From an uncultured Bacteroidota bacterium (GTDB lineage Bacteria > Bacteroidota > Bacteroidia > Chitinophagales > LD1), in assembly GCA_903919075.1 (NCBI GenBank), contig CAIXGR010000022.1, positions 62,001 to 126,000 on the forward strand: DNA of 64,000 bases. The letters are read 5' to 3'. Of this stretch, positions 11,319-19,826 are shown piece by piece (the first letter of the stretch is position 1; each line of letters starts with the position of its first letter). The translations under genes were made by a program, and so were the position numbers. Below the pieces are notes generated by a model, which saw nothing but the letters and a program-made list of their open reading frames with translations, made no database searches and was not told the origin of the DNA.

Positions 11319-12290
11319 CTATTTTTTATCCGCCGGCCCTTTACCAATATTTTCTCTCATACTGGTATCGGCCTGTATGTTTTGCATTTTGTAGTAATCC
11401 ATCACACCCAGTTGTCCTTTTCTAAAAGCCTCGGCAATGGCAATAGGTATTTGAGCTTCGGCTTCAATTACTTTAGCGCGGGCTTCCTGTGCTTTGGCTT
11501 TCATTTCCTGCTCTAAGGCAATAGCCATGGCGCGACGTTCTTCAGCTTTGGCTTGTGCGATATTTTTATCGGCATTGGCCTGGTCCATCTGCAAGCTGGC
11601 ACCTATGTTTTTACCAATATCGATATCAGCAATATCAATTGAAAGGATTTCGAATGCCGTACCCGAATCAAGTCCTTTTGCTAATACAACTTTCGAAATG
11701 GTATCGGGGTTTTCCATTACTGATTTGTGTGAAGCGGCCGAACCAATAGATGTAACTATACCTTCGCCAACACGGGCCAGAACAGTTTCTTCGCCGGCAC
11801 CACCCACTAATTGCTTAATATTAGCACGTACTGTTACGCGTGCTTTAGTTATTAACTGAATACCATCTTTAGCAACCGCAGTTACCGCAGGGCTTTCAAT
11901 AACTTTAGGGTTTACCGAAAGTTGCACCGCCTCAAACACATCTCTACCGGCCAAATCAATGGCTGTAGCGGCTTTAAAGTCCAATTCAATATTCGCCTTG
12001 TCGGCACTAATCAATGCACGTATAACTTTGCTTACGTTTCCACCTGCCAAATAGTGTGCTTCCAATAAATCGCGCTGCACCGGTATTCCTGCCTTTGTTG
12101 CTGTAACTAGCGCATTTACTATTACCGATGGTGGCACCCTTCTGAACCGCATAAATACGAGTTGCAGCAGACTAACATGCACATTAGCAAATTTTGCAGA
12201 TAACCACAATGGAATTGGCAATAGCCAAAACAATATGAGAATGGCGAAAACAATAACACCGGAAAGAAAAAACACGCCTATATGATCCAT
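11319..12290 (-). CDS. floA: Flotillin-like protein FloA
   Basis: 323 residues with one N-terminal hydrophobic hairpin ([21 protein letters not shown]), then the SPFH/band-7 region typical of FloA/UPF0365 ([51 protein letters not shown]) and an Ala/Glu-rich coiled coil (about 230-290) with the [12 protein letters not shown] motif. FloA scaffolds membrane microdomains. It starts 10 bp after the nfeD stop; nfeD-floA is a known conserved pair. Confidence 0.95.
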
Positions 12291-12300
12291 ACTATTAAGT

Positions 12301-12765
12301 TTAAATTTGTTTTACAAAAATTTTATCGTTAGTTATTTTACTAATTTCAAGCTCGGAACCGCGCTGAATATATTCTCCATTCGAATAAACATCTACCTTG
12401 TCATCATCAAAAAGAGCCTTACCATTAGGCCTTAGTTCCGAAACTGCGGTACCCTTATCTCCTACTTTATAGCGATGCTTTTCGACCTCATTTACTTTGC
12501 TCCTTATCTCGGCCTTCATTGATATTTTGTTCGATTGTATTGCCTTAAATCCGGCCACAATAGTAATAGCAAATGCTATAACCGCAGATACACTTGCAAT
12601 GTTTCCCCATTTACTATCATAAGAGTGATAAACAAGCACGACACCGGTAACTATTGCTACGCCACCTAGTATGCCAAAAAGCGCAGTGCCGGGGAGCACA
12701 AACATTTCGACAAATATTAATACTAAACCTAAAATAATAATGGCTATGATTATACCTAAGGTCAT
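12301..12765 (-). CDS. NfeD-family membrane protein
   Basis: 154 residues. Two to three membrane helices form the first half ([56 protein letters not shown]), followed by an OB-fold NfeD C-domain ([37 protein letters not shown]). This is the short NfeD form without a protease domain, which pairs with flotillins in many bacteria. It is the first gene of the nfeD-floA-ACBP unit. Confidence 0.92.
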
Positions 12766-13737: not shown

Positions 13738-14208
13738 ATGAAAATCAGTTTCATTCTTGTTGGGAAAACATCCACTGCCGAAATAAAAAACCTGTGCACT
13801 GATTATATGAACCGAATACAACGGTACGTAAAGATAAATGAACTGGTTATTGAGAATCAGGGAGGCAAAATTTCGGACATTCACAAAGCGAAACAAAAGG
13901 AGGGCGAATTGATACTGAAGAAAATTTTACCCGGCGATTTTGTTATTCTGTTGGATGATAAAGGGAAAGAGCATACCAGCCCGCAATTTGCGGCTTATAT
14001 TGAAAACCTTTTCAACCAATCTTTAAAAAATATTTGCTTTATAGTTGGCGGAGCGTATGGCTTTAGTGATGAGGTATATCAACGTGCTAATGCCAAAGTA
14101 AGCCTGTCGAAAATGACCTTTTCGCATCAAATAGTGCGGCCACTTTTTTTAGAACAGCTTTACCGGGCTTTTACTATTATTAACAATGAGCCTTACCATC
14201 ATTCGTAA
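13738..14208 (+). CDS. rlmH: 23S rRNA (pseudouridine1915-N3)-methyltransferase
   Basis: 156 residues, the usual RlmH size. SPOUT-family motifs are all present: the N-terminal MKISFILVGK, LLDDKGKEHTSPQFA, FIVGGAYGFSDEV, and the C-terminal knot SLSKMTFSHQIVRPLFLEQLYRA with NNEPYHH at the end. RlmH methylates pseudouridine 1915 in helix 69 of 23S rRNA using S-adenosylmethionine. It is the first gene of a rightward run followed by the rhomboids, which have their own promoters. Confidence 0.97.
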   Translation: MKISFILVGKTSTAEIKNLCTDYMNRIQRYVKINELVIENQGGKISDIHKAKQKEGELILKKILPGDFVILLDDKGKEHTSPQFAAYIENLFNQSLKNICFIVGGAYGFSDEVYQRANAKVSLSKMTFSHQIVRPLFLEQLYRAFTIINNEPYHHS

Positions 14209-14224
14209 AGTGCAAAATTATTTG

Positions 14225-14254
14225 TTGCGTATTTTCAATCTTAAAATAACTTCG
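14225..14254 (+). promoter_or_regulatory. Promoter of rhomboid copy 1
   Basis: TTG at 14225-14227 is followed after 19 bp by TAACTTCG (14247-14254), 16 bp before the ATG. The 15-mer TTAAAATAACTTCGC (14241-14255) is repeated exactly upstream of the second rhomboid. Confidence 0.6.
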
Positions 14255-14270
14255 CCCTTTAATCGATAAA

Positions 14271-14897
14271 ATGGACTTTACAATTAACATAACAATTTTC
14301 ATAGTTATAATTACTGCTATTACTTCGTTTATTGCGTTTAGCAATTATAAAATTTTAGACGAGCTAACTTTCTGGCCATATAGAATGTGGCGCAATAATG
14401 AATGGCACCGGTTAGTAACCTGCAGTTTTGTTCATGCTGATATGAGCCATTTATTGTTTAACATGATTGCCTTATACTCGTTCGGAACTTACATTGAATC
14501 ATCGTTTAATTATCTATTCGAAGGTAAAGGGCATGTTTTGTTTGTGACTATGTATTTTGGTGCAGTAGCTACTGCGGATATATATAATTTGTTTAGACAT
14601 AAGGATGATTTTAATTACAGAAGTTTAGGGGCCAGCGGTGGTGTAGCGGCCATTATTTTCGCAAGTATTTTGCTTAACCCGTTTGGTAAAATTTACCTTT
14701 TCTTTGCTATTGGTATACCGGCTATTCTGTTTGGTGTGTTGTATTTGTTTTACTGCGCGTATATGGCAAAACGCGGGGGCGACAATATTGGTCACATTGC
14801 GCATTTTACCGGTTCAATTTTTGGCTTCGTATTCCCCATAATATTCGAGCCTAGATTATTTACCCATTTCATTTCACAGTTAACATCGGTAATATAG
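14271..14897 (+). CDS. Rhomboid intramembrane serine protease (catalytically complete)
   Basis: 208 residues with six membrane helices. The rhomboid signature is intact: CSFVHADMSHLLFNM (the HxxxN oxyanion region), LGASGGVAAII with the catalytic Ser at residue 122, and GHIAHFTGS with the catalytic His at residue 178. Rhomboids cut single-pass membrane proteins inside the bilayer. A close paralogue follows 99 bp downstream but lacks both catalytic residues. Both genes carry the same promoter block, so the duplication included the promoter. Substrate unknown. Confidence 0.93.
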   Translation: MDFTINITIFIVIITAITSFIAFSNYKILDELTFWPYRMWRNNEWHRLVTCSFVHADMSHLLFNMIALYSFGTYIESSFNYLFEGKGHVLFVTMYFGAVATADIYNLFRHKDDFNYRSLGASGGVAAIIFASILLNPFGKIYLFFAIGIPAILFGVLYLFYCAYMAKRGGDNIGHIAHFTGSIFGFVFPIIFEPRLFTHFISQLTSVI

Positions 14898-14950
14898 TTT
14901 TAATAGCTGCGAAATGCTTTTCATTTTTGAAAAAAATAGCGCTTCTAAAC

Positions 14951-14981
14951 TTGTCTATTTTAAATGTTAAAATAACTTCGC
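14951..14981 (+). promoter_or_regulatory. Promoter of rhomboid copy 2
   Basis: TTG at 14951-14953, a 19-bp spacer and TAACTTCG at 14973-14980, inside the same 15-mer (14967-14981) seen before copy 1. It lies 16 bp before the ATG, exactly as in copy 1. Confidence 0.6.
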
Positions 14982-14996
14982 GCCATAATTTTTAAA

Positions 14997-15611
14997 ATGT
15001 ACGTTACACTCGGTATAATTATAATAACATCTATTATTTCTGTTCTTGCATTCAGAAGGAATGATTTGTTCGAGGACTTAGTTTCATGGCCTTACAAAAT
15101 CTGGAACCTTAAAGAATGGTACCGGTTATTGACCGGCGGCTTTGTGCATGAAGATGTTAGCCATTTATTCTTCAATATGCTTTTCGTGCTTTTGTTTAGC
15201 GGCTCAGCTGAATCAAATTTTAGCGAAACTTTTTTCCATAAAGGTCCGGTGTTATTTGCACTTATGTATTTCAGTGCAATAATAGTAGCCGACCTTTACA
15301 CATTGGCTACCAATAAAGACAATTACTATTATCGTAGTTATGGCGCCGGTGGTGGTATTGCGGCTATTATTTTTTCATCTATTCTTCTTCATCCGTTGGG
15401 CAAATTAACTGTATTGTTTCTGCCCGTTGGTATACCTACTATTTTGATAGGTGTAGTATATTTGGCTTATTGTTTTTTTCTTGATAAACGAAGCGATGAA
15501 CATACCGGGCATACCTCGTATTTTGCCGGTGCTATTTTTGGCTTTATTTTCCCCATTTTATGTAAGCCCTGGCTTATTGCAATTTTTATAAGGCAAATAA
15601 TTGGCGAGTAA
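14997..15611 (+). CDS. Inactive rhomboid-like protein (pseudoprotease)
   Basis: 204 residues, clearly homologous to the preceding rhomboid over its full length (GFVHEDVSHLFFNM, IAAIIFSSILLHPLGK, GAIFGFIFPI). The catalytic Ser motif GASG is GAGG here (Gly at 118, codon GGT at 15348-15350) and the catalytic His is Tyr at 175 (GHTSYFAGA). The HxxxN region is kept. The frame is intact with its own promoter, so this is not simple decay. Inactive rhomboids (iRhoms, Derlins) bind and handle membrane clients without cutting; a similar regulatory role, perhaps on copy 1, is an inference. Confidence 0.9.
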   Translation: MYVTLGIIIITSIISVLAFRRNDLFEDLVSWPYKIWNLKEWYRLLTGGFVHEDVSHLFFNMLFVLLFSGSAESNFSETFFHKGPVLFALMYFSAIIVADLYTLATNKDNYYYRSYGAGGGIAAIIFSSILLHPLGKLTVLFLPVGIPTILIGVVYLAYCFFLDKRSDEHTGHTSYFAGAIFGFIFPILCKPWLIAIFIRQIIGE

Positions 15612-15666: not shown

Positions 15667-16671
15667 ATGATTGATTTAATAAGTGACACTGTAACCAAGC
15701 CCTCAAAAGATATGCTTGAGGCGATGATGAATGCAGAAGTGGGCGATGATGTGTTTGTTGAGGACCCAACTGCCAACAGACTTGAAAATAAAATTGCCGC
15801 CATGTTTGGTATGGAAGCCGGTTTGTTTTGCCCATCGGGCACTATGACTAACCAGGTTGCTATTAAAACCCACACACAACCTTTAGACGAAATTATATGT
15901 GATAAACAGTGCCATATCTATAATCATGAAACCGGTGGGTGGGCTTTTCATTCGGGTGTTTCGATTAGGCTTACTGAAGGAGAGAGAGGCAAAATGACGG
16001 TGCCGCAAATTGAGGAACTGATATTGCCCGACCGTGACTGGTTGCCTAACTCGCGCTTAGTGGCTATTGAGAATACTGTAAATAAAGGCGGCGGAAGCGT
16101 TTATACTATTGAAGAAATGAAAGCCATTTCCGATTTCTGCCGCTCGAAGAATTTGATTATACACCTTGATGGTGCCAGGATATTTAATGCGCTTACAGCA
16201 CTGAATAAAAAACCTGCTGATTTAAAAGGCATGTTTGATAGTATTTCAATTTGCATTAGTAAAGGATTGGGGGCACCGGTAGGTAGTGTATTAATTTGCA
16301 GCAAAGCTTTTATTAAAAAAGCACGAAAAATTCGCAAAGTAATGGGCGGTGGAATGCGGCAAAGCGGTTTTTTGGCAGCGGCATGTATTTATGCTTTAGA
16401 TAATAATATTGAGCGCCTGCGCGATGACCATACCCGCGCTAAACAATTGGGTGAAACCTTGAAAACTTTAAGCTGGGTAAAAAAGGTATTACCGGTTGAA
16501 ACTAATATTGTGGTTTTTGAAGTGGAGAGTTCGGCGAAATTTGCGGAGGAAATTTTGAAGCATAATATCCGGGTTCACACCTTCTCGCCTACTTTGGTGC
16601 GGATGGTTACGCATTTAGATATTAGTGATGAGATGATTGATGAGGTGATTGAAGTGTTGAAGAAGTTTTAA
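15667..16671 (+). CDS. ltaE: Low-specificity L-threonine aldolase
   Basis: 334 residues, PLP fold type I. It begins MIDLISDTVTKPSKDMLEAM and AEVGDDVFVEDPT, contains FCPSGTMTNQVA, HLDGARIFNA (Asp for the PLP nitrogen) and CISKGLGAPVGS (Schiff-base Lys), and ends with the small C-terminal domain. The enzyme splits threonine/allo-threonine into glycine and acetaldehyde. It begins 55 bp after the second rhomboid on the same strand. Complete, no anomalies. Confidence 0.95.
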   Translation: MIDLISDTVTKPSKDMLEAMMNAEVGDDVFVEDPTANRLENKIAAMFGMEAGLFCPSGTMTNQVAIKTHTQPLDEIICDKQCHIYNHETGGWAFHSGVSIRLTEGERGKMTVPQIEELILPDRDWLPNSRLVAIENTVNKGGGSVYTIEEMKAISDFCRSKNLIIHLDGARIFNALTALNKKPADLKGMFDSISICISKGLGAPVGSVLICSKAFIKKARKIRKVMGGGMRQSGFLAAACIYALDNNIERLRDDHTRAKQLGETLKTLSWVKKVLPVETNIVVFEVESSAKFAEEILKHNIRVHTFSPTLVRMVTHLDISDEMIDEVIEVLKKF

Positions 16672-17771: not shown

Positions 17772-18329
17772 TCAAATCCACATATTCACTTTTATCAATC
17801 CATTCTTGCCGCTGTAATCGCGCGCTGAACTGTATAAGTAGTCTTCTGAATTTTCAACAATTCCAGCCCTCACTGGATTATCATGAATATAACTTATTTT
17901 TTGCTTAGACAAGGCCGGGTAGTGGGGGTTAAGATGTATAGCATGATTGCTTTCGTCCCAGAATTTATTATGTGTAATTCGACTATCTAATTTACCGGCA
18001 TGTTCAAACCGGTGTAACATCCATTCCCTTCTGCTTTCTGGTTCAGTTTGTATTGCTTCTACAATAGCTTTGGAAGTAAATTTTTTATAATCGCGGATAA
18101 TACCTGATAGTTCTTGGCCTTCTTTTGCACGTAGCACGGCATGTAAATGGTTGCTCATTAAACACCACGCCCATACTTCCAATCCTTTATTTTCAATACA
18201 AAACGTTAAATTGTTTGTAATGATTTGCTTATAAACCAATCTTGTAAAAACATCTACCCAATCTACTACTGTAAACGTAACGAAATACGGGTCGTTTTGC
18301 TGTGATATTAAATACCTGTCACCTGACAT
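17772..18329 (-). CDS. REP-associated tyrosine transposase (RAYT, Y1 family)
   Basis: 185 residues, full length for the family. PYFVTFTVVDWVDVF near the N-terminus, the HUH metal site in MSNHLHAVLRA, FWDESNHAIHL, and the C-terminal ISYIHDNPVRAGIV followed by DYLYSSARDY are the RAYT signature. Such enzymes are single-strand DNA nucleases related to IS200/IS605 transposases that act on palindromic repeats in trans. Inverted copies of an 80-bp palindromic sequence flank the gene at 7 and 28 bp, which supports an intact element of about 755 bp. No target-site duplication is visible, as expected for HUH enzymes. Confidence 0.92.
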   Translation of the reverse strand: MSGDRYLISQQNDPYFVTFTVVDWVDVFTRLVYKQIITNNLTFCIENKGLEVWAWCLMSNHLHAVLRAKEGQELSGIIRDYKKFTSKAIVEAIQTEPESRREWMLHRFEHAGKLDSRITHNKFWDESNHAIHLNPHYPALSKQKISYIHDNPVRAGIVENSEDYLYSSARDYSGKNGLIKVNMWI

Positions 18330-18917: not shown

Positions 18918-19826
18918 CTATTTCGGTTTTACAGGAATAGCACCTACCAATTTAGGAGCCGTTTCTCCATTATTAATTGCCCAATTAAAAGGGACATCAA
19001 CAGTTTTACCGTTAGCCCCTTTTATAGGAATTATTTGTTGATATAAATCAGCATATCCATTGTTTTTTTGGTATACCGCAGTCTCAGGATTAAACTTTAC
19101 TTGCTTTGCCAAGTCGCCCGCATTATCTTTTGTAAACCCAAGAGATTTTTCAAACCAATCTGCTTTAGAACCTCCAACTGGATGTTCCTTATTCAATAAA
19201 TAATTAGAAAGTTTAGAAACTACACTGTTTTGGGTTATTTTATTATTCGCAAGACTGCTTACAAATTTATTTAACCCAACACCTACAATTCCAAATGCAA
19301 ATCCAACAGTAGCATCTGTGGCAACGCTGGCTACCGTTACTTGCTTACCTTGTATTTTATTATTTACAATGCCTCCAACAACATTTGATGTTCCAGCAAC
19401 AGTAGCAGTTACAAATAAACTCGCCCCACCGGTAAAACCAGCCGCGCCACCCGTAATCCCTCCCTGCAAGGAGGCACCGCCTACAGCGGTCCAGTTTGAA
19501 ACTTTTCCGTCTTTGTAAAGCTGTATCCCTAGTTCAATTCCCCCGCCAATTAACGCTCCGACCCCTGCGCCGATAAGTGCTGTAAAACAATTAGGGCAAT
19601 CACCGTTAGGATCAGTGTAAATTAGAGGATTGTTTCTATTAACTGCATAATTGCTTTCCCAAGGTACAGCCTTAGGGTCTCTATTCCATCTCCTTCCTAA
19701 TCTAGTATCATACTCCCAAAACGCAGCAGTTGTATTAGCTCCTGAAACCCCGCTAATTTCATCGTCTTTCTCTTGTCCATTATACCCAAACCGGTATTCA
19801 TCACTTTGGTAACCCCTACCCGGCAT
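18918..19826 (-). CDS. Orphan RHS C-terminal tip with DUF6883-like toxin domain
   Basis: 302 residues from ATG 19826. The first ~75 are the end of an RHS core: YRFGYNGQEKDDEISG, FWEYDTRLGRRWNRDP, NNPLIYTDPNGDCP. A Gly/Ala-rich hydrophobic pretoxin stretch follows (about 80-170), then a soluble C-terminal domain starting LLNKEHPVGGSKADWFEKSLGF and ending APKLVGAIPVKP, the pattern of DUF6883. RHS homology continues upstream of the ATG in the same frame (QDYYTFGSV) up to a stop codon at 19881-19883, so the large RHS core is missing. This is a displaced or truncated tip, followed at once by a DUF4926 partner. Whether it is still delivered is doubtful; it may be a silent cassette. Confidence 0.8.
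   Translation of the reverse strand: MPGRGYQSDEYRFGYNGQEKDDEISGVSGANTTAAFWEYDTRLGRRWNRDPKAVPWESNYAVNRNNPLIYTDPNGDCPNCFTALIGAGVGALIGGGIELGIQLYKDGKVSNWTAVGGASLQGGITGGAAGFTGGASLFVTATVAGTSNVVGGIVNNKIQGKQVTVASVATDATVGFAFGIVGVGLNKFVSSLANNKITQNSVVSKLSNYLLNKEHPVGGSKADWFEKSLGFTKDNAGDLAKQVKFNPETAVYQKNNGYADLYQQIIPIKGANGKTVDVPFNWAINNGETAPKLVGAIPVKPK

Follow-up and report, generated by a model that had tools for sequence, protein, structure and literature searches.

We describe here a pair of rhomboid genes arranged head to tail in a 64,000-nucleotide stretch of DNA (hereafter the window; contig CAIXGR010000022.1, positions 62,001 to 126,000) from an uncultured Bacteroidota bacterium. The first gene (copy 1, 14271..14897, + strand) encodes an active-type rhomboid protease of 208 amino acids, as judged by its Ser122/His178 dyad and its Pfam match. 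The second (copy 2, 14997..15611, + strand) encodes a protein of 204 amino acids that has lost this dyad and keeps the predicted rhomboid fold. The intact open reading frame (ORF), codon models and fold prediction, taken together, make it most likely that copy 2 is a bacterial rhomboid pseudoprotease, young and specific to its lineage, on which constraint is relaxed but real. Among eukaryotes, rhomboid pseudoproteases are a prominent group, and the dead-enzyme kind is known mainly from animals and yeast. The presence of a parent and its dead offspring side by side would make the step from protease to pseudoprotease open to test by deleting either gene, and the weight of the finding hangs on whether related strains keep copy 2.

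Loss of the catalytic dyad in copy 2

The original prediction, made from the sequence of the window alone, had called copy 1 active and copy 2 dead, and both its coordinates and its motifs were correct. Copy 1 bears the GASG motif with Ser122 (AGC, 14634-14636) and the AHFTG motif with His178 (CAT, 14802-14804). In copy 2, the former reads GAGG, where the catalytic serine is replaced by Gly118 (GGT, 15348..15350, + strand), and the latter reads SYFAG, where the catalytic histidine is replaced by Tyr175 (TAT, 15519..15521, + strand). Thus the two marks of an active protease, the serine of a GxSx motif and the histidine of the sixth transmembrane helix, are found in copy 1 and are missing from copy 2. 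The HxxxN motif is retained in both (HLLFN in copy 1, HLFFN in copy 2), and both proteins exceed the cut-off (22.6 bits) of the Pfam Rhomboid family (PF01694), copy 1 with 85.2 and copy 2 with 60.5 bits.

The original prediction had also named the decay of other motif positions as a sign of a pseudogene in progress, and this was observed in part. Copy 2 differs at 14 of the 60 alignment columns that are invariant in 16 genus sequences (F30S, L64V, G68S, L115Y, S118G, V121I, A148T, F151I, A163D, G166S, D168E, A174S, H175Y and T177A), including two of the eight invariant glycines; in a leave-one-out comparison, each of the 16 sequences, copy 1 included, showed 0 to 6 differences. The other 46 positions are kept, among them His51, His56 and Asn60, the three glycines flanking the lost serine and each of the five prolines. 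In 56 of 203 columns, copy 2 has a residue absent from all 16 genus sequences.

Probable origin of copy 2 by tandem duplication

That copy 2 is a lineage-specific tandem duplicate of copy 1, promoter included, is well supported by sequence comparison, because the upstream identity, the nucleotide tree and the codon likelihood, taken together, are best read in this way. The last 46 nucleotides before the ATG show an identity of 0.78 between the copies, whereas comparison of either copy with 15 genus orthologues gives no more than 0.48, and the segments 14225-14321 and 14951-15047 form a 97-nucleotide direct repeat, 70% identical. In the nucleotide tree of 15 genes, copies 1 and 2 were joined with high support (94.3 in the Shimodaira-Hasegawa-like approximate likelihood ratio test, bootstrap 91), and the codon likelihood was better by 10.2 units with copy 2 as a sister to copy 1 than with copy 2 outside the 12 genus rows, which was the one alternative compared. 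The synonymous difference between the copies (0.66) is lower than that to 12 of the 13 orthologues of that set. At the protein level, copy 1 is 59-70% identical to the 15 genus orthologues and 48-50% identical to copy 2, and the protein tree places copy 2 inside the genus set of 13 rows (96/95).

Each copy is preceded by the same promoter-like element, TTG-N19-TAACTTCG, identified by consensus match only, at 14225..14254 for copy 1 and at 14951..14980 for copy 2 (both + strand). The boxes, the spacing and the distance to the ATG are the same, each element ending 16 nucleotides before its start codon. The element is present at these two sites only on both strands of the window, with 0.0 occurrences per strand expected under a dinucleotide model, and the 15-mer TTAAAATAACTTCGC, identical and equally distant from the ATG in both copies, occurs twice on the + strand; both likenesses had been pointed out in the original prediction, and both hold. 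When 19 single-copy orthologues were inspected by eye, many had TAnnTTCG- or TAACTTAG-like boxes about 5-20 nucleotides before the ATG, and one had the full two-box pattern. We take such boxes to be the Bacteroidota promoter type. The simplest reading of the same element at both copies is that it was copied along with the gene in the duplication. We therefore set aside the idea of a shared promoter as a regulatory device, as nothing points to joint regulation.

Selection on copy 2

The frame of copy 2 is intact and contains no stop, and its end branch in the protein tree is much longer than that of copy 1 (2.43 vs. 0.22). To describe the selection along this branch, codon models were fitted with a custom script to 15 of the family's genes, in which synonymous change is near saturation. 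The branch model gave a ratio of nonsynonymous to synonymous substitution rates (dN/dS, omega) of 0.289 for copy 2 and 0.064 for the rest of the tree, and omega = 1 was rejected with twice the log-likelihood difference (2dlnL) of 10.0, i.e., 5.0 log units. The ratio near 1 that, according to the original prediction, would mark a decaying gene was thus not seen. When a two-class model was given an exponent K for the branch leading to copy 2, the estimate was K = 0.51, and both K = 1 (2dlnL 25.9, p 3.6e-7) and K = 0, that is, complete neutrality (2dlnL 39.2, p 3.9e-10), were rejected; in fits with K = 1 or with a single omega, the length of the copy 2 branch reached its upper bound. When copy 2 was placed outside the genus rows, K = 1 was still rejected with 20.8 and K = 0 with 22.7. 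Seven control branches gave K values of 0.90 to 1.25, none of them different from 1 (p 0.16 to 0.71).

The absence of stops was set against a neutral simulation, where 103 of 1000 genes remained stop-free at 0.1 substitutions per nucleotide, 13 of 1000 at 0.2 and none of 1000 at 0.4, while the synonymous divergence (dS) between copies 1 and 2 is about 1.6. A neutral pseudogene over the whole branch is ruled out by the codon models along with the absence of stops, a very recent end of constraint being invisible to both. The data show that copy 2 is under relaxed yet non-neutral constraint, as averaged over its branch in a single genome.

Predicted fold

The AlphaFold2 models of the two proteins are rhomboid-like and have broadly the same helices, with a mean predicted local distance difference test score of 87.6 for copy 2 and 91.5 for copy 1. 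The claim of the original prediction that all helices remain is borne out by this structure prediction only. One helix of the copy 2 model (54-105) stands where the copy 1 model has two (58-83 and 87-109). The region 131-170 of copy 2 is modelled with less certainty (block means of 60 to 79 vs. 81 to 95 in copy 1). Among 553 chains aligned to the copy 2 model, the best were GlpG structures, with Z up to 18.5 (VIA-align; 169 residues aligned at 2.7 A), followed by the chains of the ADAM17-iRhom1 (Z 16.4) and ADAM17-iRhom2 (Z 14.8) structures and by Derlin-1 (Z 13.2). Copy 2 is thus predicted to retain the six-helix rhomboid fold. Because active relatives were part of the alignment that the predictor received, the model shows the compatibility of the sequence with this fold, not activity.

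Copy 2 among the rhomboids of relatives

In the original prediction, the active/dead pair was put forward as a system, with a Gly/Tyr pair possibly fixed beside an active copy across homologues. In the family sample (30 genomes, 18 of the genus, the host's own included; many are fragmented and some only 69% complete), the Pfam search gave 117 rhomboid matches, or 116 distinct ORFs after a 60-bit cut and the removal of duplicates. Both Ser and His stand in the aligned columns of 110 of these; four long ORFs have GxSG and a histidine-glycine motif, recognized by pattern only, and one is cut off before the histidine (Ser followed by a gap). Copy 2 alone has Gly and Tyr. The subfamily of copies 1 and 2 is represented by exactly one gene, always with GASG, in 25 other genomes of the family, and no gene of it was found in the remaining four (G001, G013, G021 and G022). 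The regions of 14 relatives, 8.1 to 13 kb around the gene, contain no second rhomboid of this kind.

The order sample (396 genomes, own included) was searched with copy 1 at E 1e-15 (1e-13 for the listing of coordinates), thresholds that a very diverged dead partner could escape. Matches were obtained in 377 genomes, and besides the host genome 48 had two; in none of these 48 are the two arranged in tandem, the members of each pair being separated by about 31 kb or more or placed on different contigs. No dead or paired copy was seen at 80 named loci (the best 80 of 394 relatives, a selection biased towards active copies and made with three patterns, of which one was based on the GASG motif), each of which holds a single rhomboid ORF with both residues present. 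Many of these named relatives belong to the Bacteroidota, and some to the Pseudomonadota. A scan of named genomes with copy 2 as the query revealed no relative. In a sample of 296 genomes of the phylum, in which no further member of this genus had a match, there was one match at E 1e-42 beyond the two of the window; this protein is 40% identical and, with GASG and AHFYG, of the active type. Among the papers listed by a literature search, from which most subscription papers were missing, none was seen to describe a bacterial rhomboid that is dead by nature and stands next to an active one.

A conserved active/dead pair was accordingly rejected, for no second case appeared in the genus, family, order and phylum samples (sampled, not exhausted) or in the named genomes. 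On present evidence, there is no such conserved system; there is one duplicate in one genome. Copy 2 was found only in this genome among those searched, and the idea of a system did not survive this result. Likewise, the Gly/Tyr pair did not recur in the genomes searched.

Comparison with known rhomboid-like proteins

Copy 2 resembles the GlpG-type bacterial rhomboid proteases in its predicted fold, its match to Pfam Rhomboid, its HxxxN motif and the glycines beside the lost serine, and differs from them in having neither the catalytic serine nor the catalytic histidine. The iRhoms, like copy 2, are naturally dead and have the rhomboid fold, and their chains follow GlpG in the structural comparison. 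Unlike them, copy 2 is a bare core of 204 residues, with helices predicted from residue 2, and probably a recent bacterial product. The Derlins are also dead rhomboid-fold proteins that handle membrane clients, with Derlin-1 next in the comparison. They form a separate eukaryotic family, while the only Pfam match of copy 2 above the cut-off is Rhomboid; a scan of copy 2 extended to E 1 added three matches below the cut-off and no Derlin family. The iRhoms, by contrast, have a large N terminus together with an iRhom homology domain, as mentioned in a review (PMC12615303).

The nearest bacterial precedent is YqgP of Bacillus subtilis, the bacterial case that we found described, in which an active enzyme has taken on the further role of an adaptor. 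As reported (PMC7231995), its dead S288A form serves as an FtsH adaptor for MgtE, so that here, too, a bacterial rhomboid still acts on clients in a non-cutting form; this role requires the N-terminal domain of YqgP. YqgP is, however, a single active enzyme, whereas copy 2 is a gene in its own right that is dead by nature. The second rhomboid of B. subtilis, YdcA, is described in the same report (PMC7231995) as having no detected protease activity despite intact motifs; it is like copy 2 in being a second rhomboid of one genome without detected activity, and unlike it in that copy 2 has lost the dyad itself.

Proposed history and role of copy 2

We consider the following evolutionary account, i.e., duplication, dyad loss and retention, to be very probable. 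A segment with the rhomboid gene and its promoter would have been duplicated in tandem after the split from the other sampled species of the genus. Copy 1 would have kept the ancestral protease job. Copy 2 would have given up the two catalytic residues together with several residues near them, and would have evolved much faster yet remained intact under purifying selection.

As to the role of copy 2 today, a non-proteolytic function seems to us evenly balanced between presence and absence. Copy 2 would be expressed and still inserted into the membrane, where it would bind transmembrane clients without cutting them; of the possible roles this is the most likely one because the scaffold is what was kept. 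It might then either compete with copy 1 for clients or, in the manner of dead YqgP in B. subtilis, deliver these to a further protease, for instance FtsH; this genome encodes a single match of the FtsH-type M41 peptidase. Competition with copy 1 would need no extra domain and would fit the shared promoter-like element, yet it is a guess. For the regulation of copy 1, or the presentation of substrates to it, that the original prediction proposed, copy 2 would at most be a candidate, and we hold it unlikely that it acts through copy 1's own clients. Even more speculative, and rather improbable in our view, is the analogy by which copy 2 would be a bacterial counterpart of iRhoms and Derlins soon after its birth, acting beside its active parent and under the same promoter as a non-cutting binder that tunes or redirects the parent's substrates. 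Taken as a whole, a tandem duplicate turned into a retained, non-cutting client binder is the best explanation, to which we lean slightly.

Several points weigh against it. The constraint measured is a branch average, so it could predate the loss of the dyad, with decay only recent. Copy 2 is present in no second genome, and therefore no cross-species conservation argues for a function. The 14 changes at invariant positions show only a weak excess around the dyad (6 of 13 columns near it vs. 8 of 47 elsewhere; Fisher p 0.058, and p 0.21 without the dyad). In the protein tree, the sister position to copy 1 is unsupported (48/1), and protein alone leaves the place of copy 2 undecided: its position outside the genus rows is not rejected by these data (p 0.29 in the approximately unbiased test), and an incomplete codon tree, without support values, sets it beside three other loci (L008, L019 and L020). 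Finally, the 204-residue copy 2 has no N-terminal cytosolic domain like that of YqgP, on which the adaptor role of YqgP depends (PMC7231995), and the YqgP precedent tells nothing on a linkage between two rhomboids.

The strongest competing explanation is that of a duplicate on its way out, where copy 2 was released by redundancy, lost its dyad not long ago and still has an intact frame only for lack of time since constraint ended. The restriction of copy 2 to one genome, its long end branch, K of about 0.5 and the changes at 14 of the 60 genus-invariant positions would all be expected of such a gene. What makes this explanation doubtful is the strong rejection of branch-wide neutrality in a frame without stops, together with an intact promoter-like element and the 46 invariant positions kept. 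We find it less probable still that copy 2 is a neofunctionalized membrane protein with a job unrelated to copy 1's clients (structural or lipid-related), its adjacency to the parent being incidental. Its fast but constrained evolution, the novel residues at 56 of 203 columns and its own promoter-like element agree with such a shift; the tandem position and the sameness of that element, however, fit co-expression and a shared theme equally well, and no partner gene indicates another job. An assembly artefact or horizontal transfer of copy 2, brought to mind by the lack of a copy 2 orthologue in the sampled relatives, was already disfavoured and is highly improbable: the pair is located within a contig of 139,885 bases and is flanked by genes that also adjoin the single gene in relatives, it is not a collapsed repeat because the protein identity between the copies is only about 50%, the upstream DNA is common to both, the scan with copy 2 found no relative, and the only other match at E 1e-42 in the phylum sample is 40% identical with Ser and His in place.

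Genomic surroundings and other rhomboids of the genome

The host assembly (3.53 Mb in 97 contigs, 99.6% complete, 1.32% contaminated) holds the window within contig 22. The rhomboid pair is flanked upstream by an rlmH-like gene for a SPOUT methyltransferase (13738..14208, + strand; ORF with Pfam PF02590, E 2.8e-53) and downstream by a gene for a threonine-aldolase-type pyridoxal phosphate enzyme (15667..16671, + strand; Pfam PF01212, E 2.1e-98). The rlmH-like gene is upstream of the single rhomboid in 5 of the 14 relatives' regions, and the aldolase-type gene adjoins it in 13 of 14. In NCBIfam, every match was below the cut-off, and PHROGs gave a single weak match (E 0.089).

Six Pfam Rhomboid matches were found in the genome: copies 1 and 2, a tandem pair on the side of a mutL-like gene and two singles, one beside an undecaprenyl-diphosphate-synthase-like gene (named by eye) and one on contig 89. 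All four besides copies 1 and 2 keep the serine and the histidine. The second tandem pair lies on contig 76 (L001 1255-2931), with Ser and His in both members; the name of the adjacent mutL-like gene was given by eye. As with copies 1 and 2, the two genes stand side by side in this genome, and also in several relatives; both members have recurrent relatives in the family, which in some genomes are more widely spaced. Unlike copy 2, 55 of the 56 ORFs of both types keep Ser and His, the remaining one being cut off before the histidine. Contig 27 (L002 1372-2229) carries a longer rhomboid of 286 amino acids, whose group has no other member among the 116 ORFs of the family. Other families of the order have second matches of about this length, and the gene may have disappeared from the rest of the family or have been acquired here.

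Further upstream in the window, at 11319-12765 (- strand), lie a FloA flotillin-like gene and an NfeD gene beside it, with two small lipoprotein-like genes between these and the segment of rlmH and the rhomboids. In 2 of the 14 relatives' regions, some of which end at contig ends, the genes run in the order FloA-NfeD-two small genes-rlmH-rhomboid-aldolase. FloA and NfeD as a clue to function were set aside, since the block is near the rhomboid in these two regions only. About 2 kb downstream of the pair is an IS200-like (Y1_Tnp) transposase-type gene (17772-18329, - strand; Pfam E 2.8e-07). It is followed, at 18918-19826 (- strand), by a gene whose protein start resembles, by eye, the tail of an Rhs/YD-repeat core and whose end is a DUF6883 domain.
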